From Xanthobacter sp. NM-59 (lineage in GTDB: Bacteria > Pseudomonadota > Alphaproteobacteria > Rhizobiales > Xanthobacteraceae): a stretch of DNA of 64,000 nt. The stretch covers positions 1-64,000 of the forward strand of contig NZ_JACBFQ010000004.1 of the NCBI RefSeq assembly GCF_021401125.1, read 5' to 3'. Positions 19,761 through 41,308 of this stretch are shown in pieces. How positions within the stretch are numbered: position 1 is the stretch's first letter; each line of letters starts with the position of its first letter. The position numbers and the translations under genes were made by a program. The notes beneath the pieces are model-generated. The model worked only from the letters and a program-made list of their open reading frames with translations. It made no database searches and had not been told where the DNA came from.

Positions 19761-19827
19761 GCCGCGCCCTGCTTTGAAATTCAGGCCGCGCATCGCCGCG
19801 GGCCATCCCCATGCAAGGAGAAGATCG

Positions 19828-24956: not shown

Positions 24957-25675
24957 CAGAGTGTTCCCCCTCCTCAGTGAATGGGGCGCCGGCGAGCGGG
25001 TCGGTCCGCTGCGCACGCACCCATTCCCTCGCCCGCTGGCGCCTCTTTGCGGGCGCCATGGGGGCGTTTCAGCGCGCAGCCTACCCATCTCCCGCCACCG
25101 GTTTCAAGCGCGCGCAGGCGTTGCCGACTTTCGTCGAATACGCGCTGCGGGGCGAGACGCGCCCTCCGGCTGTCATGCGCGGACAATGGGGACCGAGCGG
25201 CGCGCTTCCCCCCTGTCCGAGCTCTGATGCGTCCTTTGCCGGCGCATCATTTGCGGGAGAGGGTGGCCGGCGCGCCGCCCTTCAACCGTGGCTCGGCGCT
25301 GTGCCGGCGAGCGGTCCGCCGCTCCAGGGATCGAGGCCGCCACCCAATGCCGTGCCTCGATGCCGGGAGCCTTGAACGCCGGCACAACGCGAGCCGATGG
25401 CAGGGGAGCACTCTTTGCCGGGGGCGGCAACGCGGGAAGCTTCAGATATGGAGTGAAGCGGCCTTCTGCGTGCATTGCGGCGCGGCATTGCACGCCGGCT
25501 ATCATGCGGCGCGCGATCCTCCCAGCGCCGACGGCGCCGGTCTCAGGAGATGCGCGAGACGGTGCGGGGCAGATGGCAAGGTTGTCTTGCTCAGGGACAG
25601 GCAGCAGTGTCTTCAGGCGAAGTGGAGTTCGCCTCGCCTGAAGAATATGCGTGGCGTGACTATCCGCGTTTTCTC
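24957..25675. other. Intergenic region (719 bp)
   Basis: It lies between the start of the chemoreceptor gene and the end of the first amine dehydrogenase gene. The candidate frames give Arg/Ala/Pro-rich translations with no initiation signals, so no gene is called. The hairpin at 25611-25643 is the only clear structure. Confidence 0.5.
25611..25643. repeat. Inverted repeat downstream of the amine dehydrogenase gene
   Basis: CTTCAGGCGA (25611-25620) and TCGCCTGAAG (25634-25643) are exact 10-bp arms with a 13-base loop. The loop can also extend an alternative stem AGGCGAA/TTCGCCT. It lies 33 bp past the stop of the minus-strand gene. There is no T-run, so it may be a 3'-end stabilising hairpin or a protein site rather than a classical terminator. 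Confidence 0.4.
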
Positions 25676-27781
25676 TCAGTGTCCTGAGACGGACGGATGA
25701 TGCAGCGGCCCGAGCTCCGTCACCTCGCGCTGGAACGGCAGGTCGTCTCCGAGATCGGGCATGTCGAGCTCGCGGGCATAGCGGTGACCGGCATACGTCG
25801 CCCAGGCGATGGGCGCGGGTGCGGCCGCGTCGCCGATGATCTTCACCGATTTGATTCCCGCATCGGCCCAGTCATCGCGCCTCGACAACAGATCCTGATA
25901 GAGCTGATCTTCGCCGATGCGCGAGGCGACCATCACCACGCCGTCGCAGGGCAGCGGCCGGCGCGCGTCCGTATAGGTGCAGTTGGTCTCCACCGCACCG
26001 GCCGCGATGGCCGTGACACCGGTGTTGAGGCGGATCTCGACCCCCAGGCCGGCCAGGCGCACATGGATGGCGCCCTGCTCCAGCGTGTTGCGCGTCCAGT
26101 CGGACACGTAGGCGGCGGGGGTGATGAGGATGACGTGCGCTCCAGCCTTGGCCATGACTTCGGCCAGCACGCCGCCCATGTAATAATGGTCGTCGTCATA
26201 GACCACGATGGTCTTGCCGCTCAGATTCTCCGGATAGGCGCCGGCCATGATGTCGTCGGGCGTCCAGACCGGCATGGCGGCATCCATCGGCATCGCCACC
26301 ACATGCTGGCGCGCCACCCCGTCGCGCCGCCAGCGCGAGCCGGTGGCGATAGCCACGTGCTCGAAGCCGAACGCCATGATGTCGTCGGCGGAAAGGTGGC
26401 TGTCGAAATAGGTTTCGACATTGGAGCGCTGGGAAATCTGATACTGGCGGTAGTCGACCACGCGGCCCCAGGCGGAAAGGCCGGGCAGCAGCCGTTCGCG
26501 GGCGACACGGCCGCCCAGCGTGGTGCCGGCTTCCGCCATGGCCACATCATAGCCGCGCAAGGCGAGGGCGCGCGTGGCCTCCAGCCCGGCGGGGCCGGCG
26601 CCCACCACCAGCACGTTCGCGCTGTCGCCCTTGGGGTTCATCCGCTCGGGATGCCAGCCCTTGCGCCATTCTTCCATGAAGGTGGGGTTCTGCGTGCAGC
26701 GGCTGATGGACATGGTCATGTCGCCGGTGATGCAGATGTTGCAGCCGATACACTCGCGAATATCTTCGATCCGCCCTTCCTCGACTTTCTTCGGTAAGAA
26801 AGGATCGGCAATGGAGGGGCGCGCGCAGCCGATGAAATCGAGCACGCCCTGGCGGATCATGCGCGCCATCACATCGGGCGAGGTGAAGCGGCCGACGCCC
26901 ACCACGGGGCGCGAGGACAGCTCGCGGATGCCCTTCACCAGCAGTTCCTGGGCGCCTTCCTCCTTGAAGCGGGAGGGGCCGGAGCAGTCTTCCCAGGTGC
27001 CGTGGGCGAGGTCCCACAGGTCCGGCAGATCGGCATTCATCTCGACATATTCGCGCACCTCGGCATTGGAGAAGCCGAGATCGCCGATGCTCTCGTCAAG
27101 GCTCACGCGCATGGTGATGGCCATGGTGTCGCCCACCGCATCGCGAATGTCGGCAACCACTTCCTGGGCGAAGCGCGAGCGGTTCTCCAGGCTGCCGCCG
27201 TATTCGTCGGTGCGCTGGTTGGTGGCGCGGGACAGGAAGTGCTGGAAGATGCCGAAGCCGTGGGCGCCGTAGAGGCAGATCAGGTCGAAGCCGGCGCCCT
27301 TCGAGCGCCGGGCGGCGTTCACGAACCAGCGCCGCAGGTTACAGATGTCCGTGCGGTCGAGCGCGCGGGCCTGGACGGGATCGTTGGTAAAGGTGCGGAT
27401 GGGCAAGGCGGAAGGCGCGAGCGGCACCTCCTTGGTGTAGAAGTTCGGCCCGTTAATGCCGGAATATGCGAGCTGGATGCCCGCCAGGGCCCCGTGGGTC
27501 TTCATCGCCTCCGACATCCGCCGCAGGCCGGGAATATCCTTGTCCTCCCATAGCCGCAGCTCGATGAAGGGGGTGATCTCGGAGGTGTGGTGCATCTCCG
27601 TCTGCTCGGTGAAGATGACGCCCCACCCGCCCTCGGACTTAATGCCGCGCATGGCTGCCGCGGCCGACGGGTCGCGATAGCCGCCGCCATTGCAGTGCGG
27701 CACCTGATAGAAGCGGTTCTTCGCCGTCAGCGGGCCGATCCGGCAGGGCTCGAAGAGGATATCGTATCGCGCGTCGCGCAT
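25676..27781 (-). CDS. TMADH/DMADH/histamine dehydrogenase-family amine dehydrogenase 1
   Basis: A 701-residue OYE-type iron-sulfur flavoprotein. The FMN domain begins ARYDILFEPCRIGP, with C30 in NRFYQVPHC as the 6-S-cysteinyl-FMN site. The 4Fe-4S ligands are in CIGCNICITGDMTMSISRC (about 343-362), followed by an ADP/FAD-binding half (VLVVGAGPAGLEA). The active-site Y-x-x-H of trimethylamine dehydrogenase is kept (YGAH). At the TMADH substrate-bowl positions Tyr60/Trp264/Trp355 it has Gln60, Trp and Asp, the pattern I recall for histamine dehydrogenase. It should oxidise an amine to aldehyde plus ammonia or a smaller amine, with ETF as acceptor. The start ATG 27781 follows AGGAA. It is the last gene of a five-gene minus-strand operon. 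Confidence 0.85.
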   Translation of the reverse strand: MRDARYDILFEPCRIGPLTAKNRFYQVPHCNGGGYRDPSAAAAMRGIKSEGGWGVIFTEQTEMHHTSEITPFIELRLWEDKDIPGLRRMSEAMKTHGALAGIQLAYSGINGPNFYTKEVPLAPSALPIRTFTNDPVQARALDRTDICNLRRWFVNAARRSKGAGFDLICLYGAHGFGIFQHFLSRATNQRTDEYGGSLENRSRFAQEVVADIRDAVGDTMAITMRVSLDESIGDLGFSNAEVREYVEMNADLPDLWDLAHGTWEDCSGPSRFKEEGAQELLVKGIRELSSRPVVGVGRFTSPDVMARMIRQGVLDFIGCARPSIADPFLPKKVEEGRIEDIRECIGCNICITGDMTMSISRCTQNPTFMEEWRKGWHPERMNPKGDSANVLVVGAGPAGLEATRALALRGYDVAMAEAGTTLGGRVARERLLPGLSAWGRVVDYRQYQISQRSNVETYFDSHLSADDIMAFGFEHVAIATGSRWRRDGVARQHVVAMPMDAAMPVWTPDDIMAGAYPENLSGKTIVVYDDDHYYMGGVLAEVMAKAGAHVILITPAAYVSDWTRNTLEQGAIHVRLAGLGVEIRLNTGVTAIAAGAVETNCTYTDARRPLPCDGVVMVASRIGEDQLYQDLLSRRDDWADAGIKSVKIIGDAAAPAPIAWATYAGHRYARELDMPDLGDDLPFQREVTELGPLHHPSVSGH

Positions 27782-27887
27782 TGCAGATGTTCCTGGCACC
27801 CTCGGTCGAGCGGCGCTGGGTGGAAAGAGGGGCCGGCGGCGGCCGCCGGCCGAACAGGAGTTGGGAAGAAGGGCAGGGAGAGGCCGT

Positions 27888-29384
27888 TCAGATCTTGTAT
27901 TTGATCCAGGTGGTCTTGAGCGCCGTGTATTTCTCCAGCGAATGCAAGGAGAGATCGCGGCCGAACCCGGATTGCTTCATGCCGCCGAAGGGCGTCTGGG
28001 CCGAAAGCGCATCCACCGTGTTGACGGAGACGGTGCCCACGTGGAGCTGCTCGGACACGCGCAGCGCGCGGCTGAGATTGTCGGTCCACACCGAGGCGGC
28101 AAGGCCGTAGATGGAATCGTTGGCCATTCGGATGGCCTCCTCTTCCGTGTCGAAGGCGATGACGGACAGAACCGGGCCGAAGATTTCGTCCCGCGCCAGC
28201 GGGTCGTCGGGGCGCACGTCCTCGAAGATGGTGGGCGCCACGAAGCAGCCTTTGCCCTCAACGTGCACGCGCTCACCGCCGGCGACGAGGTTGGCGCTGG
28301 CCTTGCCGGCCTCGATGAAGCGCAGGATGCCCTGGGTCTGCTTCTCATCCACGATCGCGCCCATGCGCGAGGCGGGGTCGAGGGGGTCGCCCGGCTGGGC
28401 CGCCTTGGCGCGGGCGATCAGCTTTTCCACCAGCGCGTCCTTGATGGAGCGCTCCACATAAAGCCGGGAATTGGCGGAACACACCTCGCCCTGGTTGAAG
28501 AAGATACCGAAGGCGGCCATGTCGGCGGCGGCATCCAGATCCCCGCAATCGGCGAAGATGATGTTGGGGCTCTTGCCGCCGGTCTCGGGCCACACCTGCT
28601 TCAGGTTCGACTGCCCCGAATACTGCATGAACATCTTGCCGACTTCGGTGGAGCCGGTGAAGGCGAGACAGTCCACGTCCATGTGCAGCCCCAGGGCCTT
28701 GCCTGCCGTGGCGCCATAGCCCGGAACCACGTTGAACACGCCGTCGGGAATGCCGGCCTCCGCCGCCAGCTCGGCCAGCCGGAGGGCGGAAAGGGGCGAT
28801 TGCTCGGCCGGCTTCAGCACCACGGAATTGCCCGCCGCCAGCGCCGCGGAGCTTTTCCAGGTGGCCATGTCGAGGGGAAAGTTCCACGGCACCACGGCGC
28901 CCACCACGCCCAGCGGCACCCGGCGCACCAGCGCGAGATCGCCACGGGCGGTGGGCGCGACTTCGTCATAGACCTTGTCGATGGCCTCGGCATACCACTG
29001 GAAGAAGTGGGCCGAGCCGGGGGCGTCGATGGTGGCGGCGTCGGTCACCAGCTTGCCCATGTCGAGGCTGTCGAGCAGGGCCATTTCCTCGAGATTGGCG
29101 CGGATCAGCTCGGCCAGGCGCAGCAGCACCGCTTTGCGGTCTCCCGGCGCCATGCGCGACCAGCGCCCGTCCTCGAACGCGCGCCGGCCGGCCGCCACCG
29201 CGCGGTCGATATCGGCGGCGCCACAGGCGGCGACCTTCGCCAGCACCTCGCCGGTGGCGGGGTTGATGCTGTCGAAGGTCTCGCCCGAGAGGGCGTCGAC
29301 GAACTTGCCGTCGATGAAAGCCTGTCGGCGGAAGGTGATCTGCGCGGCGCGCGCCTTCCAGTCCTCACGGGTGTGGTTCGCCAT
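27888..29384 (-). CDS. Aldehyde dehydrogenase, PuuC/GabD-like
   Basis: A 498-residue NAD(P)-dependent aldehyde dehydrogenase. Visible features are the Rossmann stretch GVVGAVVPWNFPLDMATWKS, the general-base segment PETGGKSPNIIFADC (Glu before TGGK in place of the usual LGGK), the catalytic Cys in NQGEVCSANSRLYVE and the C-terminal PFGGMKQSGFGRDLSLHSLEKYTALKT. That last stretch resembles PuuC, which oxidises gamma-glutamyl-aminobutyraldehyde. ATG 29384 follows GAGGAAGG, 15 bp after the DUF1028 stop. Placed directly before an amine dehydrogenase gene, it should oxidise the aldehyde that enzyme releases. Confidence 0.88.
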   Translation of the reverse strand: MANHTREDWKARAAQITFRRQAFIDGKFVDALSGETFDSINPATGEVLAKVAACGAADIDRAVAAGRRAFEDGRWSRMAPGDRKAVLLRLAELIRANLEEMALLDSLDMGKLVTDAATIDAPGSAHFFQWYAEAIDKVYDEVAPTARGDLALVRRVPLGVVGAVVPWNFPLDMATWKSSAALAAGNSVVLKPAEQSPLSALRLAELAAEAGIPDGVFNVVPGYGATAGKALGLHMDVDCLAFTGSTEVGKMFMQYSGQSNLKQVWPETGGKSPNIIFADCGDLDAAADMAAFGIFFNQGEVCSANSRLYVERSIKDALVEKLIARAKAAQPGDPLDPASRMGAIVDEKQTQGILRFIEAGKASANLVAGGERVHVEGKGCFVAPTIFEDVRPDDPLARDEIFGPVLSVIAFDTEEEAIRMANDSIYGLAASVWTDNLSRALRVSEQLHVGTVSVNTVDALSAQTPFGGMKQSGFGRDLSLHSLEKYTALKTTWIKYKI

Positions 29385-29399
29385 GGCTGCCTTCCTCTG

Positions 29400-30074
29400 T
29401 CACTCGTCGCCGGGAACGCCGTAGGACGGGGCTTCCCGCGGGTCGAGGGCGCGCTGGATATAGGCGCCCATCTGCGGCTTGTAGATGGTCCACGCGGTGG
29501 CGAGGGCCTCGATGGGGCAATCCTCGGTCCAGTCGCAGCGCAGGTCCGCGATCGGCCAGGACACCTTGTCGACGACCTTGAGGCCGGCCGAGTGCACCGG
29601 TCCGGCCTCGCCGCCGGCAGCCAGGCCGGCCTTGAGGGCGGCCAGCAGCCGGTCTCCCAGATGGCCCGTGGCCGCCTGGAACGCGTCCACCATGGCTTGC
29701 GGAACCTCGCTGTCAGCCAGCAGGTTGCCGCCAGCCGCGACGTTCTCCCCCCAGGCCTCCGCCCACAGGCCGAGGGCCTTGGCCCCGGAGTGGATGGCCG
29801 CGCCGCCGTCGCGGTCCACTGCCAGAACCTGGCGATAGTCCAGGAACTGGCTGCGCCGGCGCACCTCGGCGATGGCCTCGCGGGCGCTCATGCCGGACTC
29901 CAGCAGATCGAGCGTGAGCGGGCCCAGGGAAGGGTCCGTCACGTTCTGCGAGGCCACCGCGCCGACGCCCGCGCGGGCGAAGGAGCAGCGCGCGGCCACC
30001 GCCGGCGACGACGAGGAGATGGCGAGGCCGAACATGCCGGTTTCGGCGCACCGGGCGACCAGGGAGAAGGTCAT
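29400..30074 (-). CDS. DUF1028 family protein
   Basis: A 224-residue DUF1028 protein, a family with an Ntn-hydrolase-like fold and no settled function. It begins MTFSLVARCAETGMFGLAISSSSPAVAARCSFARAGVGAVASQN, which is the family signature. The chain shows no signal peptide. It is separated from the Rid-family gene by four bases and from the aldehyde dehydrogenase gene by fifteen, so all three are co-transcribed. DUF1028 genes recur beside amidohydrolases, Rid proteins and peptidases, which suggests hydrolysis of an amide-type intermediate here; this is inference. Confidence 0.82.
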   Translation of the reverse strand: MTFSLVARCAETGMFGLAISSSSPAVAARCSFARAGVGAVASQNVTDPSLGPLTLDLLESGMSAREAIAEVRRRSQFLDYRQVLAVDRDGGAAIHSGAKALGLWAEAWGENVAAGGNLLADSEVPQAMVDAFQAATGHLGDRLLAALKAGLAAGGEAGPVHSAGLKVVDKVSWPIADLRCDWTEDCPIEALATAWTIYKPQMGAYIQRALDPREAPSYGVPGDE

Positions 30075-30078
30075 CGTG

Positions 30079-30495
30079 TCACTCCGGAATGACGGCGGTT
30101 CCGTCGATTTCCACCAGCCAGTCGGGCCGGGCGAGGGCGCTCACCACCAGCCCGGTGGAGACGGGGTGAACGCCCTTGATGTATTCGCCCATGGTCCGGT
30201 AGACGGCCTCGCGATGGCGCACATCTGTAATGTAGACCACCACCTTGACCAGATGCTCCATGGTGCCGCCCGCCTCTTCGATGAGCTGCTTCATGTTCTG
30301 CATGACCTTGTGGGTCTGCTCCACCGGGTCGTGGCTGTTGATGTTGACGGCGTCGTCGAGATTCTGCGGGCACTGGCCGCGCAGCCACACGATCTTGCCG
30401 CCCTGGGTCACGACCGCCTGGGCAAGGTCGTTGTCCAGCTTCTGCTCGGGATAGGTGTCCTTGGTGTTGAACTTGCGAATTCGGGTGTGCGCCAT
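30079..30495 (-). CDS. Rid (YjgF/YER057c/UK114) family protein lacking the RidA arginine
   Basis: A 138-residue Rid-family protein, expected to be a trimer with ligand sites between subunits. The conserved core GGKIVWLRGQCPQN, VKVVVYITDVRHREAVYRTMGEYI and LVEIDGTAVI is clear. The arginine that precedes the final strand in archetypal RidA (R105 in E. coli numbering) and is needed for imine or enamine deamination is replaced by Ser (VSTGLVVSALARPDWLVEID). It therefore belongs to a non-archetypal Rid subgroup, and imine hydrolysis should not be assumed. It sits between the flavin monooxygenase and DUF1028 genes. Confidence 0.85.
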   Translation of the reverse strand: MAHTRIRKFNTKDTYPEQKLDNDLAQAVVTQGGKIVWLRGQCPQNLDDAVNINSHDPVEQTHKVMQNMKQLIEEAGGTMEHLVKVVVYITDVRHREAVYRTMGEYIKGVHPVSTGLVVSALARPDWLVEIDGTAVIPE

Positions 30496-30591
30496 TTCGC
30501 TCTCCGATGCTGATGGATGCGCCGAAGCCCATGGGCGCTGCGCCCAGGGTTTCGGCGGGATGGTGTCTTTGGCGGGATCGGCCCCTCGCGC

Positions 30592-31878
30592 TCAGGCGGG
30601 TTCCATCTCGCGCCGGGCGGAGCTGTGATACTCCATGTACTTGCGCTGGATCACGATCTGGTCTGCCAGATACTTGGCATCGTGCCACGCGCCCCAGATG
30701 AAGCTGGAACCGCGCCGCGACTGCCACGGCAGGCCGAGGAAATAGATGCCCGCTTCGGTGGAAACGCCGCGCTGGTGCTTCGGCCTTCCATTGGCGTCGA
30801 AGGCGTTCACCTTCATCCAGCTATAGTCCACCGCGAAGCCGGTGGCCCAGATGATGGTGGTGATGCCGGCCTTGGCGAGATCGAGGGACAAAATGGGGTT
30901 CGTCACGCACTCGGAATCGGGAACGCTCATGCGCGCTTCCGGCTCCTCCGGCAGATCGAGGCCGTTGCGGGCGATATAGGCGTCAGCCTCGTCCAGCAGG
31001 GCGCGGTTGTCGGCGTCGCCCATCGCCAGATTCTGGGCGAGGTCGGGGGCAAACGTCATGGCGCCGTCCTGATAGGCCAGGGTGCGGCCCACCAGGGTCA
31101 TGCCCTGCGCGGCAAGGCGGCGGAAGTCGATGGTGTGGCCGCCATGGGCGCCGCTGACGGCGATGGTCACATGCTCCTTGCCGGGCTCCTGGGCGGCGGC
31201 GTCCCACTTGCCGAGCACGCCCAGCCACCACACGAAGTCACGGCCGCGATAGCTGCGCGGCGGCCGGTCGTGGGGGCCGACAGAGAGATAGACGCGCTTG
31301 CCGGCGGCCAGCAGTTCCTCGGCGATCTGCACGCCAGAGGAGCCCGCGCCCACCACCAGCACAGCCCCTTCGGGGAGCTGGCCGGGGTTGCGGTAGGAAA
31401 CCGAATGCATCTGCGTCAGGCCGGCGGCGGTGGGCACGACGGCGGGGATGATGGGCCGCTGGAAGGGGCCGGTGGCGGCCACCACGCGCTGGGCCTCGAT
31501 CACCCCGGCGGAGGTCTCCACGCGGAAACCGGGGCGACCCTCGTTCCGCTCCACCTTCAGCACCTCGACGCCGCACCGCACGGGGGCCTCTATCTTCTTG
31601 GCATAGGCCACGAAATAATCGGCCACCGTTTCCTTGGGCACGAACACGTCCGGCCCCATGGCGGGGTCGATCTCGGAGAAGTCCAGGTCGGGGAAGCGGT
31701 CGTGCCAGGCCGGGCCGTTGGCCACCAGCGAATCCCACCGCTCCGAGCGCCAGCGCTCGGCAATGCGCGAACGCTCCAGCACGAGATGCGGCACGCCATT
31801 TCTCCGCAAATGCTCGCTCATGGCCAGTCCGGCCTGGCCCGCGCCGATGACCAGCGTGTCCGTCTTCTCAACCGACAT
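30592..31878 (-). CDS. Flavin-containing monooxygenase-like oxidoreductase (CzcO/FMO type)
   Basis: A 428-residue FAD/NADPH enzyme. FAD binding is at residues 10-17 (VIGAGQAG), and a second dinucleotide motif VVGAGSSG lies near residue 175. The intervening SLVANGPAWHDRFPDLDF and IWATGFAVDYSWM are typical of the CzcO/FMO group. These enzymes oxygenate soft nitrogen or sulfur atoms or carry out Baeyer-Villiger reactions. It is the first gene of the minus-strand operon that runs to 25676. The start ATG 31878 is preceded by GAGGGTTGAGAG. In this setting it could N-oxygenate the amine substrate or a ring intermediate. Confidence 0.82.
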   Translation of the reverse strand: MSVEKTDTLVIGAGQAGLAMSEHLRRNGVPHLVLERSRIAERWRSERWDSLVANGPAWHDRFPDLDFSEIDPAMGPDVFVPKETVADYFVAYAKKIEAPVRCGVEVLKVERNEGRPGFRVETSAGVIEAQRVVAATGPFQRPIIPAVVPTAAGLTQMHSVSYRNPGQLPEGAVLVVGAGSSGVQIAEELLAAGKRVYLSVGPHDRPPRSYRGRDFVWWLGVLGKWDAAAQEPGKEHVTIAVSGAHGGHTIDFRRLAAQGMTLVGRTLAYQDGAMTFAPDLAQNLAMGDADNRALLDEADAYIARNGLDLPEEPEARMSVPDSECVTNPILSLDLAKAGITTIIWATGFAVDYSWMKVNAFDANGRPKHQRGVSTEAGIYFLGLPWQSRRGSSFIWGAWHDAKYLADQIVIQRKYMEYHSSARREMEPA

Positions 31879-31955
31879 CTCTCAACCCTCGTTCGCCCTC
31901 GAAGAATTCCGGATGAAATCCCGAGGTTTGATCGACAACCTAGCGGCCGCGCTGG

Positions 31956-31972
31956 ATCATAAAAAATATGAT
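31956..31972. promoter_or_regulatory. AT-rich palindrome upstream of the flavin monooxygenase operon
   Basis: ATCATA and TATGAT are perfect 6-bp arms around AAAAA, in a locally AT-rich stretch that contrasts with the GC-rich surroundings. It lies 78 bp upstream of the flavin monooxygenase start, in the 254-bp gap behind the second amine dehydrogenase gene, and is a good candidate operator or promoter part for the operon. Confidence 0.4.
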
Positions 31973-32132
31973 TTTCTGCTGTAGTGCTTCGGATATCCCT
32001 AAACACGTATCAGCGTGCTTTGGCGTTGCTTGCCATGCGCCAGGCACGCGTCATCGCGCCGGGGCCAGGGGGCTCCAGCGCGGCATGGGAACGGGGCAAC
32101 GGGCGCCGGGGCAACGCCCGGCGCCTTCGGCA

Positions 32133-34235: not shown

Positions 34236-34321
34236 GCGGCGGCTCCTCCGGAGCGTTCTGGAAGGTCTGGCAAAAGCTAACGGTGGGCCGGCGCCATCGA
34301 AATTCGCTTTTTTCTAAGCTC

Positions 34322-34341
34322 TGGTTCGGGAGTTCCGAGAT
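34322..34341. promoter_or_regulatory. LysR-type box (T-N11-A) between divergent genes
   Basis: TGGTTCGGG-AG-TTCCGA includes TCGGGAGTTCCGA (34326-34338), a T-N11-A element with dyad symmetry. Fifteen of its first 17 bases match the copy at 35561-35581. It is 62 bp before the ArgE-like start and 87 bp behind the start of amine dehydrogenase 2. Confidence 0.5.
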
Positions 34342-34399
34342 CGATGCCGGCGGCATGGCTGTTAAAGCTCAACGCGGCCCATCGTCCCGGAGACGTTCC

Positions 34400-35554
34400 A
34401 TGTCCGCCCGATCCCTCGATCTTCTCGAACGGCTGATCGCCTTTCCCACCGTGTCGTCCGCCTCCAACCGGGAGCTGGTTTCCTTTGTGGTGGCGTTCCT
34501 GGCGGAGCGCGGCATCGAGGCGATGCTGGTACCCAATGCCGATGGCACCAAGGCCAATCTGTTCGCCACCATCGGTCCCCGGGACAAAGGCGGCGTCATG
34601 CTCTCGGGCCACACGGACGTGGTTCCCGTGGAAGGCCAGGCCTGGACCGGCGACCCGTTCCGGCTGCGGGAGGAAGGCGGGCGCCTGCTGGGGCGCGGCA
34701 CCACGGACATGAAGGGCTTCCTGGCCTGCGCCCTCGCTGCGGCCGACCGTGCCGCGCGCATGGAGCTGGCGGTGCCTCTGCACCTCGCCTTCTCCTATGA
34801 CGAGGAAATCGGCTGCGTGGGGGTGCGCGGGCTGCTGGATGCGCTGGCAAGGGCGCCGTTTCGGCCGGAAATGGCGATCATCGGGGAGCCCACCTCCATG
34901 CGCATCGCCACCGGCCACAAGGGCAAGACGGCGCTGCGGGCCCTGTGCTGCGGCCGCGAGGCCCATTCCGCGCTCGCGCCCACGGCGCTCAACGCCATCC
35001 ACCTCGCGGCCGATTACGTGGAAAAGATCCGCGCCCGGCAGGCGCTCTACGCGGACCGGGGCGCGCGCGACACGGCCTATGACGTGCCCTACACCACCCT
35101 CCATGTGGGGCGCATCCAGGGCGGAACCGCGCTCAACATCGTGCCCAATGCCTGCACGCTGGAGCTGGAATTCCGCAACCTCGCGCAGGACGATCCCGCC
35201 ACCCTGCTCGCGGAGCTGGAGGCCGACGCCGAGGCGGTCGCCCGGCCGTGGAAAGCGGAGTTTCCCGAAGCGGCGGTGCGGCTGGAGGCGACCAACAGCT
35301 ATCCGGGCCTCGCCACGGCCGATGACGAGCCGGTGGTGGCCTTCGCCCAGTCGCTCACCGGCGCCAATGCGCGCATCAAGCTGGCGTTCGGCACCGAGGG
35401 CGGGCTGTTCCGCACCCGCCTGTCCATCCCCACCGTGGTGTGCGGCCCTGGCTCCATGGACCAGGGCCACAAGCCGGACGAATGGGTTTCCAAAGACCAG
35501 ATCGCCGCCTGCGACAGCTTCATGGATGCGCTTCTGGCGCGGCTGGCAGCCTGA
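34400..35554 (+). CDS. M20 peptidase, ArgE-like deacetylase/deacylase
   Basis: A 384-residue zinc hydrolase of the ArgE/DapE group, the same length as E. coli ArgE (383). Metal ligand H71 and D73 are in LSGHTDVVPV, the bridging Asp is in GRGTTDMKGF (about 104), the catalytic Glu pair in YDEEIGCVG (about 134-135), and a dimerisation domain follows. ArgE-type enzymes remove acetyl or formyl groups from the alpha-nitrogen of amino acids. Here it is next to amine oxidation genes, not arginine synthesis genes, so an N-acyl intermediate of the pathway is a likely substrate. ATG 34400 follows CGGAG by seven bases. A LysR-type box lies just upstream. Confidence 0.85.
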   Translation: MSARSLDLLERLIAFPTVSSASNRELVSFVVAFLAERGIEAMLVPNADGTKANLFATIGPRDKGGVMLSGHTDVVPVEGQAWTGDPFRLREEGGRLLGRGTTDMKGFLACALAAADRAARMELAVPLHLAFSYDEEIGCVGVRGLLDALARAPFRPEMAIIGEPTSMRIATGHKGKTALRALCCGREAHSALAPTALNAIHLAADYVEKIRARQALYADRGARDTAYDVPYTTLHVGRIQGGTALNIVPNACTLELEFRNLAQDDPATLLAELEADAEAVARPWKAEFPEAAVRLEATNSYPGLATADDEPVVAFAQSLTGANARIKLAFGTEGGLFRTRLSIPTVVCGPGSMDQGHKPDEWVSKDQIAACDSFMDALLARLAA

Positions 35555-35560
35555 GGACGT

Positions 35561-35581
35561 TGGTTCGGGCTTTCCGAACCA
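35561..35581. promoter_or_regulatory. LysR-type box before the HpaB-like gene
   Basis: TGGTTCGG-GCTTT-CCGAACCA has perfect 8-bp arms. TCGGGCTTTCCGA (35565-35577) is a T-N11-A element. The same motif occurs at 34322-34341. It starts seven bases after the deacylase stop and is 112 bp before the hydroxylase start; a LysR-family gene follows at 37355. Confidence 0.6.
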
Positions 35582-35692
35582 TTGGAGAGGAAAGCAATAT
35601 TTTCATCTCCCCTGCCGTGGCGACAGGATCGGCGCCGCAGACGGCGGGGCGGCGCACGCCCGCCATTTCGTTTTCCCGGCAGAGGTTTCGCC

Positions 35693-37213
35693 ATGATCCG
35701 CACCGGCGCGCAATATCTCGACTCCATCCGCGACGGGCGCGAGGTCTATATCAATGGCGAGCGCGTGCGCGATGTGCCCTCCCACCCCATGTTCAAGCCG
35801 CTCGTGGACATTCGCGCGCGTATCTACGACATGCAGTGGGAGGCCCGCACCCGCGATGTGATGACCTTCACCCAGGATGGCGAGGTCAACGGCATCGGCA
35901 ACAAGCTGCCCATCACCCAGGAGGATTGGTGGGACAAGCGCCGGGCGACCGATTGCGTGATGCGCGAGGTTGGCGGCATCGTCACCCGGGTGGGGGACGA
36001 GACCGTGGGCGAGATGTGGTCGCTGTTCGACGGGCAGGATGTGCTCAACGAGGTGGACCCCCGCTTTTCCGCGAACATCCGTGACCACATCGACCGGGTG
36101 CTTCACCACGACCCCTTCCACGTCTCCGCCAACACCGATCCCAAGGGCGACCGCTCCCGCCTGCCGCAGGAGCAGGACCCGGACATGCTGCTGCATGTGG
36201 TGAAGGAGACCGATGCCGGCCTCATCGTGCGCGGTGCCAAGTATGAGACGGCGGCGCCCTATGCCAACCAGGCCTTCACCAAGCCCACCATCGCCAATTG
36301 GGGGGACAGCGCCTATTCCGACTATGCGGTGGGGTTCATCTGCGATCTGGGGTCGCCGGGCATCAAGTTCATCTGCCGCACCGGGTTCGCCGGCCGCCGG
36401 CCGGTGGAAGACTACCCCCTTTCCAGCCGCTTCGACGAGGTGGAGGCGCTCGTCATCTTCGATGACGTGCTGATCCCCTGGGAGAACGTGCTGTTCTACC
36501 GCCACACCCGGGCCGCCATGTTCATGCGCGCGACCCTGCACCGCTACTCGGCCTTCGCCTTCGTGCAGCGCAGCCTCACCTTCGCGGACATGCTCATTGG
36601 CGCGGCCTTGTTCAACGCGCGCCAGACCGGGCTCGACAAGCTGCAGGCGGTGCAGGAAAAATTGGCGGAGCTGGCGGTCTATAGGGAGGGCATCAACGCC
36701 CACCTCACTGCGTCGGTGACCCTGGCCGAGCGCTCGCCCAGTGGACTTTCCATGCCGAACCAGTCGCTGCTCTATGCAGGCCGCGTGCTGGCCTGTTCCC
36801 AGCTCCACCACGTCATGCACATCGCCCGCGAACTGTGTGGCGGGCAGATCTGCATTACGCCGGACGCTGCCGCCTTCGCCCATCCCGATACCAAGCCGTG
36901 GCTGGACAAGTTCTATACCCTCAATGAGGAGTGGGGGGCGGAGGACCGCCGCAGGCTTCTCGCCTTCGCGCGCGATATGCTGAACTCCGATTATGCGGGC
37001 CACCGCCTGAGCTTCCAGCTCTTCGCCCAGTCGCCGCCTTATGCCCACCTTGCGGCGGTGTACCGGAACTTCGACTGGGACGGGCCGCTGGACTTCGTGA
37101 AACGGTCCGCGGGCTTGTCCGACAATGTGATGGGCAAGGCCACGCGTGCCGCGGCCGACAGCGCTGTTTCGCGCTGGTTCGACCCGGCTATGAAGCCGCG
37201 CGCGGCGGAGTAA
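35693..37213 (+). CDS. HpaB-family FADH2-dependent hydroxylase
   Basis: A 506-residue member of the 4-hydroxyphenylacetate 3-monooxygenase oxygenase family, with an acyl-CoA-dehydrogenase-like fold. Characteristic pieces are MIRTGAQYLDSIRDGREVYINGERV, HPMFKPLVDIRARIYDM, FDDVLIPWENVLFYRH and HHVMHIARELCGGQICITPD. The length fits the family (about 480-520). It uses free FADH2 supplied by a separate reductase; no HpaC-like gene is seen in the window. The start ATG 35693 follows AGAGG. The family hydroxylates phenols, pyrroles or pyridines, so a ring-bearing amine catabolite is possible. Expression is probably under the LysR box at 35561-35581. Confidence 0.85.
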   Translation: MIRTGAQYLDSIRDGREVYINGERVRDVPSHPMFKPLVDIRARIYDMQWEARTRDVMTFTQDGEVNGIGNKLPITQEDWWDKRRATDCVMREVGGIVTRVGDETVGEMWSLFDGQDVLNEVDPRFSANIRDHIDRVLHHDPFHVSANTDPKGDRSRLPQEQDPDMLLHVVKETDAGLIVRGAKYETAAPYANQAFTKPTIANWGDSAYSDYAVGFICDLGSPGIKFICRTGFAGRRPVEDYPLSSRFDEVEALVIFDDVLIPWENVLFYRHTRAAMFMRATLHRYSAFAFVQRSLTFADMLIGAALFNARQTGLDKLQAVQEKLAELAVYREGINAHLTASVTLAERSPSGLSMPNQSLLYAGRVLACSQLHHVMHIARELCGGQICITPDAAAFAHPDTKPWLDKFYTLNEEWGAEDRRRLLAFARDMLNSDYAGHRLSFQLFAQSPPYAHLAAVYRNFDWDGPLDFVKRSAGLSDNVMGKATRAAADSAVSRWFDPAMKPRAAE

Positions 37214-37354
37214 GGTGGCACCGGCCGGGTCGCCATGCCCCAGGCGCATTGACATTTCCGCTGAAGGCCACGATCAGGCATCGGGTTGCGCTCCGCCAGG
37301 AGTGCGCTCGGGGATTGCTCGCGCGGGCCCCCGGAAAAGGGGTAGGGGACGCCC

Positions 37355-38305
37355 ATGCGCTACACGCTGAGGCAACTGGAATATTTCATCGCGGCCGGGG
37401 AGACCGGCTCGATCACGCTCGCGTCCGAGCGCATCAACATTTCCCAGCCCTCCATCTCCACCGCCATCAGCCACCTGGAGCAGGAGCTGGGGGTGCAGCT
37501 GTTCGTGCGCCACCACGCCCAGGGCCTTTCGCTGACCCCCGCCGGCCGTAAGCTGCTGGCCGAGGCCAAGCACCTGATCGAGCAGGCCGAGGGCCTCTAC
37601 GCCGTCGCCTCCGAGGCAACGGACCAGGTGCGCGGGCAACTCTCCGTGGGCTGCATGGTCACGCTCGCCCCCATGATCCTGCCGGAACTGTCCCACGGCT
37701 TCATGTCCGCATTCCCGGCCACTCAGGTGCGCCATGTGGAGGCCAACCAGGAATGGCTGCTGGAAGGGCTGCGGCGCGCCGAGATCGACATTGCGCTGAC
37801 CTACGACCTGCAGATTCCCGACGGCATCACCTTCACCCCCCTGGCCAGCCTGCCGCCCCATGTGGTGGTGAGCGAAGGCCATCCGTTCGCGCGGCTCTCG
37901 GCGGTGAGCCTGCAGGATCTGGCGGACGAGCCCTTGATTCTGCTCGATCTGCCCATCAGTCGCGAATACTTCCTGGCGCTGTTCCTCAAGGAGGGGTTGC
38001 AGCCGAAGATCCATTCCCGCTCCGCCTATCAGGAGGTGGTGCGCACCATGGTCGCCAACGGCTATGGCTACACCCTCTTCAATGTGCGCCCGCGCTCGGA
38101 TTTCGCGCTCGACGGGCGGCGCGTGGTGCGGGTGCGGCTGTCCGGCGAGCACCGGCCCATGGTGGTGGGCACCGCCACCGTCTCGCAGTTCAAGAAATCC
38201 CGCCTGCTCCAGGCGTTCGAGGCCCATTGCCGGTCCTTCATCTCCGATGCCTACATCCCCGGCATGGTGCCGCCGGCCCTCGACCGCCGGGTGCGCAAGC
38301 CGTGA
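37355..38305 (+). CDS. LysR-family transcriptional regulator
   Basis: A 316-residue LysR regulator. The N-terminal winged helix (1-60) reads YTLRQLEYFIAAGETGSITLASERINISQPSISTAISHLEQELGVQLF, followed by the linker helix and a periplasmic-binding-like effector domain (about 90-300). It lies 141 bp after the HpaB-like gene on the same strand. The T-N11-A boxes at 34322 and 35561 are likely targets, which would place the deacylase, the hydroxylase and perhaps amine dehydrogenase 2 under its control. Confidence 0.88.
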   Translation: MRYTLRQLEYFIAAGETGSITLASERINISQPSISTAISHLEQELGVQLFVRHHAQGLSLTPAGRKLLAEAKHLIEQAEGLYAVASEATDQVRGQLSVGCMVTLAPMILPELSHGFMSAFPATQVRHVEANQEWLLEGLRRAEIDIALTYDLQIPDGITFTPLASLPPHVVVSEGHPFARLSAVSLQDLADEPLILLDLPISREYFLALFLKEGLQPKIHSRSAYQEVVRTMVANGYGYTLFNVRPRSDFALDGRRVVRVRLSGEHRPMVVGTATVSQFKKSRLLQAFEAHCRSFISDAYIPGMVPPALDRRVRKP

Positions 38306-38602
38306 CGGCCAGGCGGGCACACGTGCCTGTTTTCAAGGGATGGCGCGGGGCGCGGAGCGAGGCTTGGGGGCAGGGGGCCTCCTACTTAGGCCAAGGCGAG
38401 GCAAAACCCCCGAAAAGACTATTTTTGCCGAAGAAGGGTGCATGTTTAGCTCGTCTCCGGAGCTGATCTCCGGGGTTTTACTGAGGTCGCGAGGGTGTCC
38501 AAGCCCTTTCCGGCCGCGGGATAAAGTCTGGATGTCAGCGCGTTCCACCCGGCCAGGACCGCATGCGCGAGCCGGCCGCGACCCGCGACGGAACCCGAAT
38601 CC
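38306..38602. other. Intergenic region before the NitT/TauT-type importer (297 bp)
   Basis: It separates the LysR gene from the binding-protein gene. CTCCGGAG and CTCCGG at 38455-38473 form a short dyad followed by GGTTTTA, a weak terminator candidate for the LysR transcript. The remainder should hold the importer promoter. No T-N11-A match to the upstream boxes was seen. Confidence 0.45.
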
Positions 38603-39586
38603 ATGATCAAAAAGACCTTCCAGACCGCCACCCTTCTCGCCGGCCTCGCCGCCGGTCTCGCGTTCGGTTCCCCCGCCGAGGCCGGCCAGATCCGCCTGGG
38701 CATGACCACCTGGGTCGGCTACGGCCCGCTCTATCTCGCCCGCGACCTTGGTTACTTCAAGGAAGCCGGCCTCGACGTGGAGCTGAAGACCATTGAGGAT
38801 GCGGCCATCTACATGGCGGCCGTGGCGTCCGGCGACCTCGACGGCATGGCCTCCACCGTGGACGAGGTGATGAAGTGGCGTTCGCCGGACTTCTGCTTCA
38901 AGTCGGTGCTGGCCCTCGACGACAGCCATGGCGGCGATGGCGTGCTCGCCGGCAAGGACGTCAAGTCGCTGAAGGATCTCAAGGGCAAGGAAGTGGCGCT
39001 GAACGAGGGCTCGGTGTCCGAGTTCTGGTTCAACATCCTGCTCGACAAGGCGGGCATGGCGGAAAAGGACGTGCAGGTCACCAACATGACCTCCGATGAC
39101 GCCGCCGCCGCCTTCATCGCTGGCCGCGTTCCCGCCGCCGTCACCTGGGAGCCTCACCTCACCGAGGTGCGCAAGTCCGGCAAGGGTCAGGTGCTGATCG
39201 ATTCCACCGCCACCCCCGGCGCCATCGTCGACACGGTCGGCCTCAAGTGCGACTTCATCGCCGCCAACAAGGCCGACATCGCCGCCTTCGTGAAGGCCTA
39301 TTACAAGGCCCTCGACTACATGAAGGCCAATCCCGAGAAGTCCTACGAGATCATGGCCAAGGGTGTGGGCGGCTATCTCGCCGACCCGAAGGAGTTCGCC
39401 GACGCCGCCAAGGGCGTGAACTTCTATGACAAGGCCCGCAACATCGAGTTCTTCGGCAATCCGCAGAAGGGCGAGGCGGCCGAGCTCATCCAGCTTGCCA
39501 ACAAGATCTGGGGCAGCAAGGGGATGATGAAGATGAAGGTGGATTACGACACCCTCGTCGACCCCTCCTTCGCCACTGCCCAGTGA
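38603..39586 (+). CDS. ABC transporter substrate-binding protein, NitT/TauT (SsuA/NMT1) type
   Basis: A 327-residue periplasmic protein. The signal peptide is MIKKTFQTATLLAGLAAGLAFG with cleavage near AEA (about 27). The mature start IRLGMTTWVGYGPLYLARDLGYFKEAGLDVEL is typical of the NMT1/THI5-like binding proteins for nitrate, sulfonates, pyrimidines or amides. Codon use is strongly biased to common codons, as for an abundant protein. It is followed by a stable hairpin (39608-39636) and then by the permease and ATPase genes. Its ligand is unknown; proximity to the amine genes makes an amine or its precursor plausible. Confidence 0.85.
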   Translation: MIKKTFQTATLLAGLAAGLAFGSPAEAGQIRLGMTTWVGYGPLYLARDLGYFKEAGLDVELKTIEDAAIYMAAVASGDLDGMASTVDEVMKWRSPDFCFKSVLALDDSHGGDGVLAGKDVKSLKDLKGKEVALNEGSVSEFWFNILLDKAGMAEKDVQVTNMTSDDAAAAFIAGRVPAAVTWEPHLTEVRKSGKGQVLIDSTATPGAIVDTVGLKCDFIAANKADIAAFVKAYYKALDYMKANPEKSYEIMAKGVGGYLADPKEFADAAKGVNFYDKARNIEFFGNPQKGEAAELIQLANKIWGSKGMMKMKVDYDTLVDPSFATAQ

Positions 39587-39607
39587 CCTTACCGGTCAAG
39601 GCCCGCC

Positions 39608-39636
39608 GCCGCCGGTTCCCATGCGGAACCGGCGGC
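39608..39636 (+). repeat. Intercistronic hairpin after the binding-protein gene
   Basis: GCCGCCGGTTCC (39608-39619) pairs perfectly with GGAACCGGCGGC (39625-39636) around a 5-base loop, without a T-run. Stable hairpins at this place are known to protect binding-protein mRNA and lower expression of the permease part. The function here is inferred from position. Confidence 0.55.
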
Positions 39637-39656
39637 ATGCCGGCAGGAGAGAAGAC

Positions 39657-40463
39657 ATGAGTTCCCGACGCGCACCCTGGACCTTGATGACCACGCCGTT
39701 CCGGGACATTTCCCGCCGGGCGGTGATCACCACCGGGATCATCGTGTGGGTCATGGTGGTGGCGGGGTGGTGGATCCTCTCCCACACGAACCTGGTGCCC
39801 CCCATGTTCCTGCCCTCGCCGGAGAAGGTGTGGGCCGCGGGCGTGCGGCTGATGTCCGATGGCAGCCTGTTCGTCCACACCCTGGCGAGCCTTGAGGTGG
39901 TGATGCTCGGCTTCGCCATCTCCTCCGTCCTCGCCATTCCCATCGGGTTGTGGATGGGCAGCTACCGCGCCGTGCAGGCGGTGCTCGAGCCGCTGGTGAA
40001 CTTCGTGCGCTACCTGCCGGTGACGGCCTTCGTCCCGCTGCTCATCCTGTGGATCGGCATCGGCATCCAGCAGCGGGTCAGCGTCATCATCCTTGGCACC
40101 TTCTTCCAGCAGGTGGTGATGATCGCCGACAGCGCCCGGGCGGTGCCGCGCGATCTGGTGAACGCCTCCTACACCCTGGGCACCAAGCGGTCCGAGGTGG
40201 TGTGGCACGTGATCTTCCCCGCCGCTCTGCCGGATATCCTCGATACGCTGCGCGTCACGCTCGGCTGGGCATGGTCCTATCTGGTGGTGGCCGAGCTCGT
40301 GGCCGCGTCTTCCGGCCTTGGCTACATCACCATCAAGGCCATGCGCGGCTTTCAGGTGGACGTGATCTTCATGGCCATCGCCACCATCGGCGTGCTGGGC
40401 CTGCTCTCCGATCTCTTCTTCCGCTTCCTTCGCGCGAGGGTCGCGCCATGGGCACATCGATGA
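39657..40463 (+). CDS. ABC transporter permease, NitT/TauT type
   Basis: A 268-residue BPD-type permease with six hydrophobic helices and the coupling-loop sequence ARAVPRDLVNASYTLGTKRSEVVWHVIFPAALPDILDTLRVTLGWAW. The phrase PPMFLPSPEKVW near the first periplasmic loop is usual in SsuC/TauC proteins. The start ATG 39657 has AGGAGAG upstream; the longer frame lacks a signal. The gene overlaps the ATPase start by 16 bp. Confidence 0.87.
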   Translation: MSSRRAPWTLMTTPFRDISRRAVITTGIIVWVMVVAGWWILSHTNLVPPMFLPSPEKVWAAGVRLMSDGSLFVHTLASLEVVMLGFAISSVLAIPIGLWMGSYRAVQAVLEPLVNFVRYLPVTAFVPLLILWIGIGIQQRVSVIILGTFFQQVVMIADSARAVPRDLVNASYTLGTKRSEVVWHVIFPAALPDILDTLRVTLGWAWSYLVVAELVAASSGLGYITIKAMRGFQVDVIFMAIATIGVLGLLSDLFFRFLRARVAPWAHR

Positions 40464-41308
40464 CCGAGCTTTCCCCTTCCTCCCCCATGGAAACGACAGC
40501 GGTGGAGCTGTTCCCCAAGAAGCGGCGGGCGCTGGGCTCGCCGGCGCGGCTCGCCATCGAGAATGTCACGCTGCGCTATGGCGGCCCCGCGGGCACCCTG
40601 GCGGTGGACGATGTGTCCATCGATGTGGAGCAGAACGAGTTCTGCGTCATCGTCGGTCCCTCCGGCTGCGGCAAGTCGAGCCTGCTCTACCTTGCCGCCG
40701 GCCTCACCGAGCTGACCGCCGGCGACATCCGCGTGGATGGGCACATCGTGACCGAGCCGGGGCCGGATCGCGGCATGGTGTTCCAGGGCTACACCCTGTT
40801 CCCCTGGCTCACGGTCCGGCAGAACGTGGAATATGGCCCCAAGCGCAAGGGGCTCGGCAAGGCCGAGCGGCGCGCGGTGGCCGAGCGCTTCCTCGGCGAG
40901 GTGGGTTTGGGCCAGTTCGCCGATGCCTTCCCCGCGCAGCTCTCCGGCGGCATGAAGCAGCGCGTGGCGCTGGCCCGCGCGCTAGCGAACGACCCCAGCG
41001 TGCTGTTCATGGATGAGCCTTTCGGCGCGCTCGACAGCCAGACCCGCGGCACCATGCAGAAGCTGCTGCTGCGGGTGTGGGAACACACCCAGAAGACCGT
41101 GCTGTTCGTGACTCACGACATTGACGAGGCCATCCTGCTGGGTGACCGCGTGGTGGTGATGACCGCGCGTCCCGGGCGCATCAAGGCTGAGATCAAGGTG
41201 GACTTTCCCCGGCCGCGCTCCATGGACCTCGTTCTTGAGCCGGAATTCATCGCCCTGAAGCGGCGCATCCTGGGCCTGCTGCACGACGAGATCGACGAGG
41301 AGCATTGA
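40448..41308 (+). CDS. ABC transporter ATPase, NitT/TauT type
   Basis: A 286-residue nucleotide-binding subunit with Walker A VGPSGCGKSS, Q-loop FQGYTLFPWLTV, signature LSGGMKQRVALARAL, Walker B VLFMDEPFGALD and H-loop VTHDIDEA, as in SsuB/TauB/NrtD. About 40 extra residues precede the domain. The start ATG 40448 follows GAGGG by seven bases and overlaps the permease end; ATG 40460 is an alternative. It completes the importer begun at 38603. Confidence 0.88.
   Translation: MGTSMTELSPSSPMETTAVELFPKKRRALGSPARLAIENVTLRYGGPAGTLAVDDVSIDVEQNEFCVIVGPSGCGKSSLLYLAAGLTELTAGDIRVDGHIVTEPGPDRGMVFQGYTLFPWLTVRQNVEYGPKRKGLGKAERRAVAERFLGEVGLGQFADAFPAQLSGGMKQRVALARALANDPSVLFMDEPFGALDSQTRGTMQKLLLRVWEHTQKTVLFVTHDIDEAILLGDRVVVMTARPGRIKAEIKVDFPRPRSMDLVLEPEFIALKRRILGLLHDEIDEEH

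Follow-up and report, generated by a model that had tools for sequence, protein, structure and literature searches.

In a 64-kb stretch of contig NZ_JACBFQ010000004.1 from Xanthobacter sp. NM-59 (hereafter the window, meaning the whole of the DNA analysed), the locus at positions 25676-41308 very probably represents a catabolic cluster of the Hin type, which would convert histamine into aspartate. The new part of this locus is an HpaB-like gene, while the rest is the known Hin pathway with a different entry enzyme. On balance, the HpaB-type protein appears to be a two-component oxygenase for imidazoleacetate or a near analogue, unrelated to HinF, the flavin monooxygenase of the pathway. The enzyme activities are proposed from protein families, active-site residues, synteny, co-occurrence in genomes and trees. 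The first-pass annotation of this DNA had recognised no described pathway in this enzyme set, a claim that does not hold, as the set fits the Hin histamine pathway with a histamine dehydrogenase replacing HinC (PMC8231116, PMC6467879). The logic it had proposed, in which an amine is imported and oxidatively deaminated and its aldehyde oxidised, with ring oxygenation and deacylation as further steps, fits the Hin reading.

The probable Hin gene set and its entry enzyme

Pseudomonas putida U degrades histamine to aspartate via the Hin proteins, of which HinC and HinD yield imidazole-4-acetate and HinF, HinL, HinH and HinG convert imidazole-4-acetate into aspartate; in PAO1, hinF, hinL, hinH and hinG are PA5393, PA5392, PA5391 and PA5390, respectively (PMC8231116). 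HinF is described as a flavin adenine dinucleotide-dependent monooxygenase (EC 1.14.13.5), HinL as an enamine deaminase, HinH as an amidase and HinG as EC 3.5.1.8 (PMC6467879). All four families of the HinF-HinL-HinH-HinG set are present in the window, namely a single-component flavin monooxygenase (FMO), a Rid protein, a DUF1028 protein and an M20/ArgE-type deacylase, together with an aldehyde dehydrogenase of the HinD type.

The grouping of these genes was examined in named genomes by an alignment-based scan for the FMO, from which the best 80 of 587 candidates were kept, with close relatives over-represented among them. In this set, 19 of the 21 Pseudomonas loci show the order FMO-Rid-DUF1028-M20 on one strand, as in hinF-L-H-G. 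In the remaining two (L116 and L142), the FMO is clustered with Rid, DUF1028, M20, aldehyde dehydrogenase and class-III aminotransferase genes, the aminotransferase and the aldehyde dehydrogenase matching the expectation for HinC and HinD. Across the same best 80, Rid and DUF1028 genes are each found within 5 kb of the FMO in 69 loci and the deacylase in 60, a grouping that is far beyond chance and that bears out the earlier suggestion that these genes are conserved together; their absence as a group from every relative, which had been named as an outcome that would refute the proposal, did not come true. Furthermore, the entry dehydrogenase discussed below lies within 10 kb of the FMO in 27 of the 80 loci, and the binding protein of the ABC importer listed below in 14.

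Scores against family models are also alike in the window and in Pseudomonas. With TIGR04046, the window FMO reaches 370 bits and that of Pseudomonas locus L094 369 bits, both under the cut-off of 498, and the window protein is 72-74% identical to the Pseudomonas copies. With PRK07522, the window deacylase reaches 517 bits and the fourth gene of L094 584 bits, both over the cut-off of 412, while the DUF1028 proteins score 225 and 230 bits, respectively. The aldehyde dehydrogenase is 64-65% identical to those of L116 and L142, and scores 617 bits with the PuuC model, under its cut-off of 850. Because both the gene order and the family models match the Pseudomonas F-L-H-G loci, the window would encode a Hin pathway with a dehydrogenase entry. 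The ArgE-like gene, which the first-pass annotation had taken to release an N-acylated amine, fits the N-formylaspartate deformylase HinG instead.

With regard to the entry enzyme, here called HADH1, its sequence identifies it as a histamine dehydrogenase. In phmmer searches it matches PDB entry 6de6, the histamine dehydrogenase of Rhizobium, with 1432 bits over residues 5-698, compared with 838 bits for 3k30 and 520 bits for the trimethylamine dehydrogenase 1djn. All 12 residues compared are kept (Cys30, Gln60, Ile69, Phe72, Glu74, Asn110, Tyr171, His174, Phe176, Trp263, Asp265 and Asp354), of which Cys30 binds the flavin mononucleotide (FMN); the list of active-site residues and the identity of 6de6 as a Rhizobium sp. 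enzyme are taken from PMC10180351. A trimethylamine or dimethylamine dehydrogenase was rejected on the 520 versus 1432 bits, HADH1 being of the histamine type; trimethylamine enzymes were among the outcomes that, according to the first-pass annotation, would speak against it. The distribution of the cluster genes was followed in samples of 385 genomes of the class, 397 of the order and 14 of the genus. The order set comprises 25 HADH1-type loci, window included, and 15 of them carry the FMO or HpaB in the fetched stretch. Within the genus, HADH1 is found in two genomes, the source genome and G777 (89% identity), and relatives at 40-41% occur in four others as well as in a third dehydrogenase copy of the source genome (G000:C33:214845-216998, 41% identical to HADH1). 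This patchy distribution suggests that the cluster may have been acquired by horizontal gain.

The genes named by the first-pass annotation were recovered on the strands it gave, by means of an open reading frame (ORF) list and Pfam and NCBIfam scans of the window proteins, with solved relatives sought by phmmer against the PDB. The output of a simple gene caller, which mis-joined some genes, served for leads only. The features of the locus are as follows, with proposed roles.

25676..27799, minus strand: HADH1, predicted histamine dehydrogenase (6-S-Cys FMN, 4Fe-4S); phmmer, 12 residues
27888..29384, minus strand: aldehyde dehydrogenase, putative HinD role (imidazoleacetaldehyde to imidazoleacetate); Pfam Aldedh 555 bits
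29400..30074, minus strand: DUF1028 protein, putative HinH role; PF06267 225 bits
30079..30495, minus strand: Rid protein, putative HinL role; PF01042 68 bits; adjoins DUF1028 in many relatives
30592..31878, minus strand: single-component flavin monooxygenase (FMO), putative HinF role, EC 1.14.13.5; TIGR04046 370 bits
32133..34235, minus strand: HADH2, histamine dehydrogenase paralogue; 3k30 937 bits, 6de6 910 bits
34400..35554, plus strand: M20/ArgE-type deacylase, putative HinG role, EC 3.5.1.8; PRK07522 517 bits
35693..37213, plus strand: HpaB-type group D flavin monooxygenase with an Arg-Glu-Ser signature; HpaB_N 274 bits, HpaB 198 bits
37355..38305, plus strand: LysR-type regulator; Pfam
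38603..39586, plus strand: NMT1/SsuA-type substrate-binding protein of an ATP-binding cassette (ABC) importer; PF09084 102 bits
39621..40463, plus strand: ABC importer permease; BPD_transp_1 99.8 bits
40460..41308, plus strand: ABC importer ATPase, start approximate (near 40460); ABC_tran 108 bits

The order of transcription on the minus strand (34235 to 25676) is HADH2, FMO, Rid, DUF1028, aldehyde dehydrogenase and HADH1, and that on the plus strand (about 34400 to 41308) is M20 deacylase, HpaB, LysR and ABC importer. Both dehydrogenases are full length and carry the covalent-FMN cysteine and the 4Fe-4S cysteine motif, as expected of the histamine/trimethylamine dehydrogenase family to which they had been assigned. 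The longest ORFs overstate some starts: that of the deacylase opens at 34283 and that of HpaB at 35582, with likely starts, by homology, at Met40 (34400) and Met38 (35693), respectively.

In the proposed route, the importer would take up histamine or an imidazole acid, HADH1 would deaminate histamine oxidatively to imidazoleacetaldehyde, the aldehyde dehydrogenase would convert the latter into imidazole-4-acetate, and the HinF-type FMO would hydroxylate its imidazole ring. DUF1028 (HinH), Rid (HinL) and M20 (HinG) would then account for ring hydrolysis and the removal of ammonia and formate to give aspartate, with an order and division of labour of the Rid and DUF1028 steps that we infer. The LysR protein, a probable regulator of the cluster, is 92-97% identical to the one beside DUF1028-Rid-HpaB in Ancylobacter locus L072 and in L074. 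HpaB would act as a second ring oxygenase that is unrelated to HinF and takes imidazoleacetate or a close analogue, its flavin reductase being supplied in trans, and HADH2 may deaminate a related amine. No HinC was found at the locus, where HADH1 stands instead; a class-III aminotransferase at 19774-21207 is only 30-31% identical to those of L116 and L142, the search for HinC having been confined to this part of the genome.

DUF1028 has one match in the whole source genome. In a 130-row alignment, Thr2 is kept in at least 97% of the rows that cover it, and the sole solved relative by sequence is 2imh. An N-terminal threonine fits a hydrolase of the Ntn type, and the DUF1028 protein may thus be Ntn-hydrolase-like.

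The HpaB-type oxygenase and its putative flavin reductase

The solved proteins nearest to the window HpaB are 4-hydroxyphenylacetate hydroxylases. Its scores with two equivalog models, 230 bits (cut-off 480) and 160 bits (cut-off 885), are far below both thresholds. The 4-hydroxyphenylacetate hydroxylases bind the phenol through Arg100, Tyr104 and His142, and the carboxylate through Ser197 and Thr198 (PMC10537072). The equivalents in the window protein, hand-counted from an alignment, are Arg136, Glu140, Ser182, Thr236 and Ile237. Across 74 HpaB rows with at least 58% identity and at least 430 aligned residues, window included, Arg136, Glu140 and Ser182 are invariant and Thr236 is kept in 73. 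Imidazoleacetate appears to fit such a site, because an aryl-acetate enzyme has here lost its phenol contacts and keeps part of its carboxylate anchor.

Relatives of this protein are found in 29 of the 385 class genomes and 45 of the 397 order genomes, two of the 45 being only 41-42% identical; three HpaB matches at 41-42% identity were excluded from the cluster counts. Within 5 kb of HpaB, the 31 class loci fetched contain Rid in 25 cases and DUF1028 in 20, both counted at a minimum of 40% identity, and the FMO in none. HpaB lies directly upstream of a Rid gene on the same strand (Rid at 30% identity or more) in 27 of these loci, with a gap of fewer than 200 bases in 25 of the 27. When the neighbourhood was extended to 9 kb in 76 HpaB rows, Rid was found in 67, DUF1028 in 59, a flavin reductase match in 32, the deacylase in 24 and the FMO in 7. 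Six other members of the genus carry a more distant HpaB, and in the five fetched it is accompanied by a flavin reductase match, Rid, DUF1028 and the deacylase.

Some loci depart from this arrangement. In L162, L164, L170 and L173, there are two HpaB genes, each then followed by Rid, with one DUF1028 between the sets, and the second HpaB shares about 61-64% identity with that of the window. In L183, L184 and L185, the HpaB-Rid pair has no DUF1028 nearby and is accompanied by relatives of an S15-type peptidase, an MTTB-type methyltransferase and a 2-hydroxyacid dehydrogenase; this pair likely acts on another substrate. The HpaB relatives of L236, L237 and L238, at 40-42% identity, had been chosen as a negative control and were rejected as such, as they have a DUF1028 neighbour and the Arg-Glu-Ser residues; the family was widened instead, which leaves the solved 4-hydroxyphenylacetate hydroxylase as the sole comparison outside it. 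Because these three loci share both the neighbour and the residues, the pairing of HpaB with DUF1028 seems to be older than the clade studied.

A two-component oxygenase requires a reductase partner, and seven flavin reductases are encoded in the source genome. Where a flavin reductase lies near HpaB in other loci, its identity was confirmed with Pfam in all seven loci tested. Four of them are L058, L190, L196 and L230; in the other three it is fused to a LysR substrate-binding domain (L040:6064-7227, L159:7922-9106 and L202:15477-16784, the last about 5 kb from HpaB), and such a fusion is possibly a substrate-sensing reductase. We consider it an even call that HpaB and its reductase form a second oxygenase for imidazoleacetate or a similar compound which has been exchanged with HinF many times; HpaB-Rid-DUF1028 would then be a widespread, unrecognised module for the opening of imidazole-type rings, and in some lineages the LysR-domain reductase could let the substrate gate the supply of reduced flavin.

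Proposed exchange of the two oxygenases and alternative readings

The exchange was followed by co-occurrence and by trees. Among the 25 order genomes with HADH1 at a minimum of 64% identity, source genome included, the FMO is found in 19 and HpaB in 13, both counted at E values up to 1e-100: both in 7, the FMO only in 12, HpaB only in 6 and neither in none (Fisher p 0.015, uncorrected for kinship). The six with HpaB only are G010, G135, G150, G208, G308 and G335, three of which belong to one genus. Furthermore, the class genome G571, which is 93% complete, combines HADH1 with HpaB at a single locus and has no match to the FMO. Near-alike cassettes with a branched-chain-type ABC importer contain HpaB in L196, L197, L200, L202 and L203 and the FMO in L226, L200 having no deacylase in its stretch. 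HpaB adjoins the FMO in L086, L205 and L221.

In a DUF1028 tree of 130 rows, from which the duplicate or overlapping loci L092, L101, L106, L188 and L189 had been excluded, the kind of oxygenase beside DUF1028 changes at least nine times. This tree and that of HpaB are quick trees with several long branches. After the additional removal of 5 long-branch rows, 1 without an oxygenase label and 32 near-identical ones, the 92 rows left show 9 switches against a mean of 30.3 in 50 shuffles of the labels, so that the oxygenases are clustered and yet do not form one split. On these 92 rows, a single clade for the FMO-linked DUF1028 proteins was rejected by the approximately unbiased (AU) test, with p about 5e-52. 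Well-supported switches place L034 (HpaB) beside L036 (FMO), and L040 and L159 (HpaB) within an FMO group. In the HpaB tree, all the rows flagged for a nearby dehydrogenase (HADH1 at 64% or HADH2 at 66% identity and above, which leaves L184, with a dehydrogenase at 55%, unflagged) fall in one 27-row clade with an SH-aLRT support of 98.

Two simple relations between the oxygenases were rejected. Strict mutual exclusion is contradicted by the presence of both in seven of the 385 class genomes, and obligatory sequential action by Pseudomonas and Mesorhizobium loci without HpaB nearby and by the six HADH1 genomes without an FMO match.

Several observations weigh against a Hin cluster with two interchangeable oxygenases. 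Linkage of HADH1 to an oxygenase is common and not universal, as 10 of the 25 order loci (L038, L045, L046 and L048-L054, some of them near contig ends) show neither the FMO nor HpaB in the stretch, one having the deacylase only and nine no cluster gene at all. Nine of the best 80 of 587 FMO loci have neither Rid nor DUF1028. HinH would be DUF1028 judging by gene order in Pseudomonas species other than P. aeruginosa, and the Rid protein has in the alignment no equivalent of what we take to be the catalytic arginine of RidA. With regard to HpaB, only 2 of the 31 class loci have the deacylase within 5 kb, and only 2 an enzyme of the histamine dehydrogenase family; moreover, the window has no flavin reductase gene next to HpaB, and the closest one on the contig is about 147 kb away. 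Among the FMO loci of order genomes that also hold HpaB (L223-L229), Rid and DUF1028 are nearby only in L226, one of seven, and the tail enzymes are thus mostly not beside the FMO in these genomes. Lastly, the seven class genomes with both oxygenases compare with about 1.1 expected (15 x 29 / 385), and G351 has two separate complete loci, L222 and L226, one per oxygenase; since co-occurrence exceeds chance and G351 holds both loci, it can be argued that the FMO and HpaB act on different substrates. Four of these seven genomes belong to one genus, and the two genes lie side by side in the source genome and on different contigs or far apart in the other six. As a separate observation, L223, L224, L225, L227 and L228, whose genomes also hold HpaB, have an FMO whose fetched stretch contains no Rid and no DUF1028.

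The second dehydrogenase, HADH2, bears on the same question. It is 56% identical to HADH1, scores best with 3k30, the N. simplex enzyme (937 bits, with 910 bits for 6de6), and keeps 10 of the 12 histamine dehydrogenase residues. Lys175 aligns with the triad residue His174, and the Asp265 column holds an asparagine, but there is an aspartate after it, at the N. simplex spacing. The motif YAGK, with this lysine, is present in all eight HADH2 copies that reach 66% identity, the window copy among them; seven of these lie with the binding protein of the importer found in the window and six have HpaB or the FMO in the stretch. An HADH2-like copy in L057, just under the 66% cut, has the histidine and also adjoins this importer. 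We tentatively suggest, at slightly less than even confidence, that HADH2 is a putative deaminase of a histamine-related amine.

These features of HADH2, in particular the lysine in place of the triad histidine and the company of its eight copies (HpaB, FMO or importer), together with the co-occurrence of the oxygenases and the two loci of G351, would also fit two side-by-side pathways. HADH1, aldehyde dehydrogenase, FMO, Rid, DUF1028 and M20 would then serve histamine, and HADH2, HpaB, LysR and the importer a different imidazole or heteroaromatic amine (a methylated histamine, for instance), borrowing Rid, DUF1028 and M20; L059 and L062, where HADH2 is paired with the importer and no HADH1 was seen in the stretch, fit such a division. 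However, in G010, G335 and G571, which have no FMO match at E values up to 1e-100, HADH1 shares its locus with HpaB and DUF1028 (and with Rid in G010 and G571), so that the HADH1 pathway can apparently rely on HpaB. In addition, HADH2 occurs with the FMO and without HpaB in L036, from a genome (G085) that gave no match to HpaB, and in L229, where none is in the stretch. Two parallel pathways are therefore regarded as a real but lesser possibility, and a single Hin-type cluster with HpaB as a second oxygenase is preferred.

The reading of HpaB as an ordinary hydroxylase of phenols or 4-hydroxyphenylacetate, used for tyramine or another aromatic amine like it and located here by accident, would agree with the clear membership of the HpaB family and with its nearest solved relatives, but was rejected as very improbable on the sub-cut-off equivalog scores, the replacement of the phenol-contacting Tyr104 and His142 by Glu and Ser in all 74 rows, and the frequent Rid and DUF1028 neighbours in class loci. 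Equally implausible is the undescribed pathway envisaged by the first-pass annotation, which would degrade putrescine, agmatine, dimethylamine or another such amine: the aldehyde dehydrogenase does score best with PuuC, but the FMO-Rid-DUF1028-M20 set matches the imidazoleacetate-to-aspartate module, and we know of no role for that set in polyamine or methylamine routes. The side activity of the Rhizobium histamine dehydrogenase on agmatine (10% of the histamine rate) and 1,3-diaminopropane (13%) counts in favour of this pathway (PMC10180351).

Surrounding genes and comparison with known systems

Two genes near the locus were considered as members and rejected. The one at 23190-25088 on the minus strand, which adjoins the cluster and encodes a methyl-accepting chemotaxis domain and a PilZ domain, has no relative among the other loci searched, and an upstream amidase has only weak relatives there, at 38% identity or less. 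On the other side, positions 42271-49545 of the plus strand contain an open frame of 2424 codons without a Pfam match, which may encode a large protein of unknown kind or may be an artefact of the high G+C content. Consensus scans were uninformative, with 3 promoter-like sites against 1.5 (standard deviation 1.1) in shuffled sequences and 6 terminator-like sites against 7.2. With regard to the literature, no paper connecting imidazoleacetate with HpaB or DUF1028, or hin genes with a histamine dehydrogenase, was found among the matches listed in a search of open-licence papers only, which makes this a weak negative.

The proposed assignments would give DUF1028 and subgroups of the Rid and HpaB families a chemistry in common, the opening of the imidazole ring, and provide testable functions to genes that are modelled as unknown, ArgE-like or 4-hydroxyphenylacetate hydroxylase. 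They also suggest that bacterial histamine breakdown is modular, with one tail that can be fed by an aminotransferase, by an FMN/4Fe-4S dehydrogenase or by a histamine oxidase, the last as proposed for Brevibacterium, and that two kinds of ring oxygenase can apparently start. The removal of histamine is relevant to food safety and to host-microbe signalling.

Compared with the histamine dehydrogenase of Rhizobium sp. 4-9 (6de6), HADH1 is a near-full-length match with no difference among the 12 residues checked, whereas HADH2 has the lysine for His174 and the triad aspartate at the N. simplex spacing. The window HpaB shares with the 4-hydroxyphenylacetate 3-hydroxylase HpaB its family, the equivalent of the catalytic Arg100, a threonine at the Ser197 carboxylate anchor and, in many relatives of the window type, a flavin reductase nearby, and differs from it in Glu for Tyr104, Ser for His142 and the Rid and DUF1028 neighbours. 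The Rut pathway for pyrimidines, as far as we are aware, likewise combines the flavin-dependent opening of an N-heteroring (RutA) with a subsequent Rid protein (RutC), but the RutA oxygenase and its substrate are unrelated to those considered here.

The closest likeness is to the Hin pathway of P. putida U and P. aeruginosa (hinCD, hinFLHG and hinK), with which the window shares the FMO, Rid, DUF1028 and M20 families, the F-L-H order with M20 close by and the aldehyde dehydrogenase; the LysR-type gene of the window is a possible counterpart of HinK, the LysR regulator that senses imidazoleacetate. The window differs in its entry through an FMN/4Fe-4S histamine dehydrogenase rather than the HinC aminotransferase, in its putative uptake by an ABC importer in place of the HinA permease, in the M20 gene on the opposite strand and in the additional HADH2 and HpaB. 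The putative histamine pathway of Brevibacterium has homologues of HinA, HinD, HinF, HinG, HinH, HinI and HinL, but a histamine oxidase is proposed there for the HinC step, an entry family other than that of the window, and the available excerpt mentions no HpaB, unlike the gene set described here (PMC6467879).

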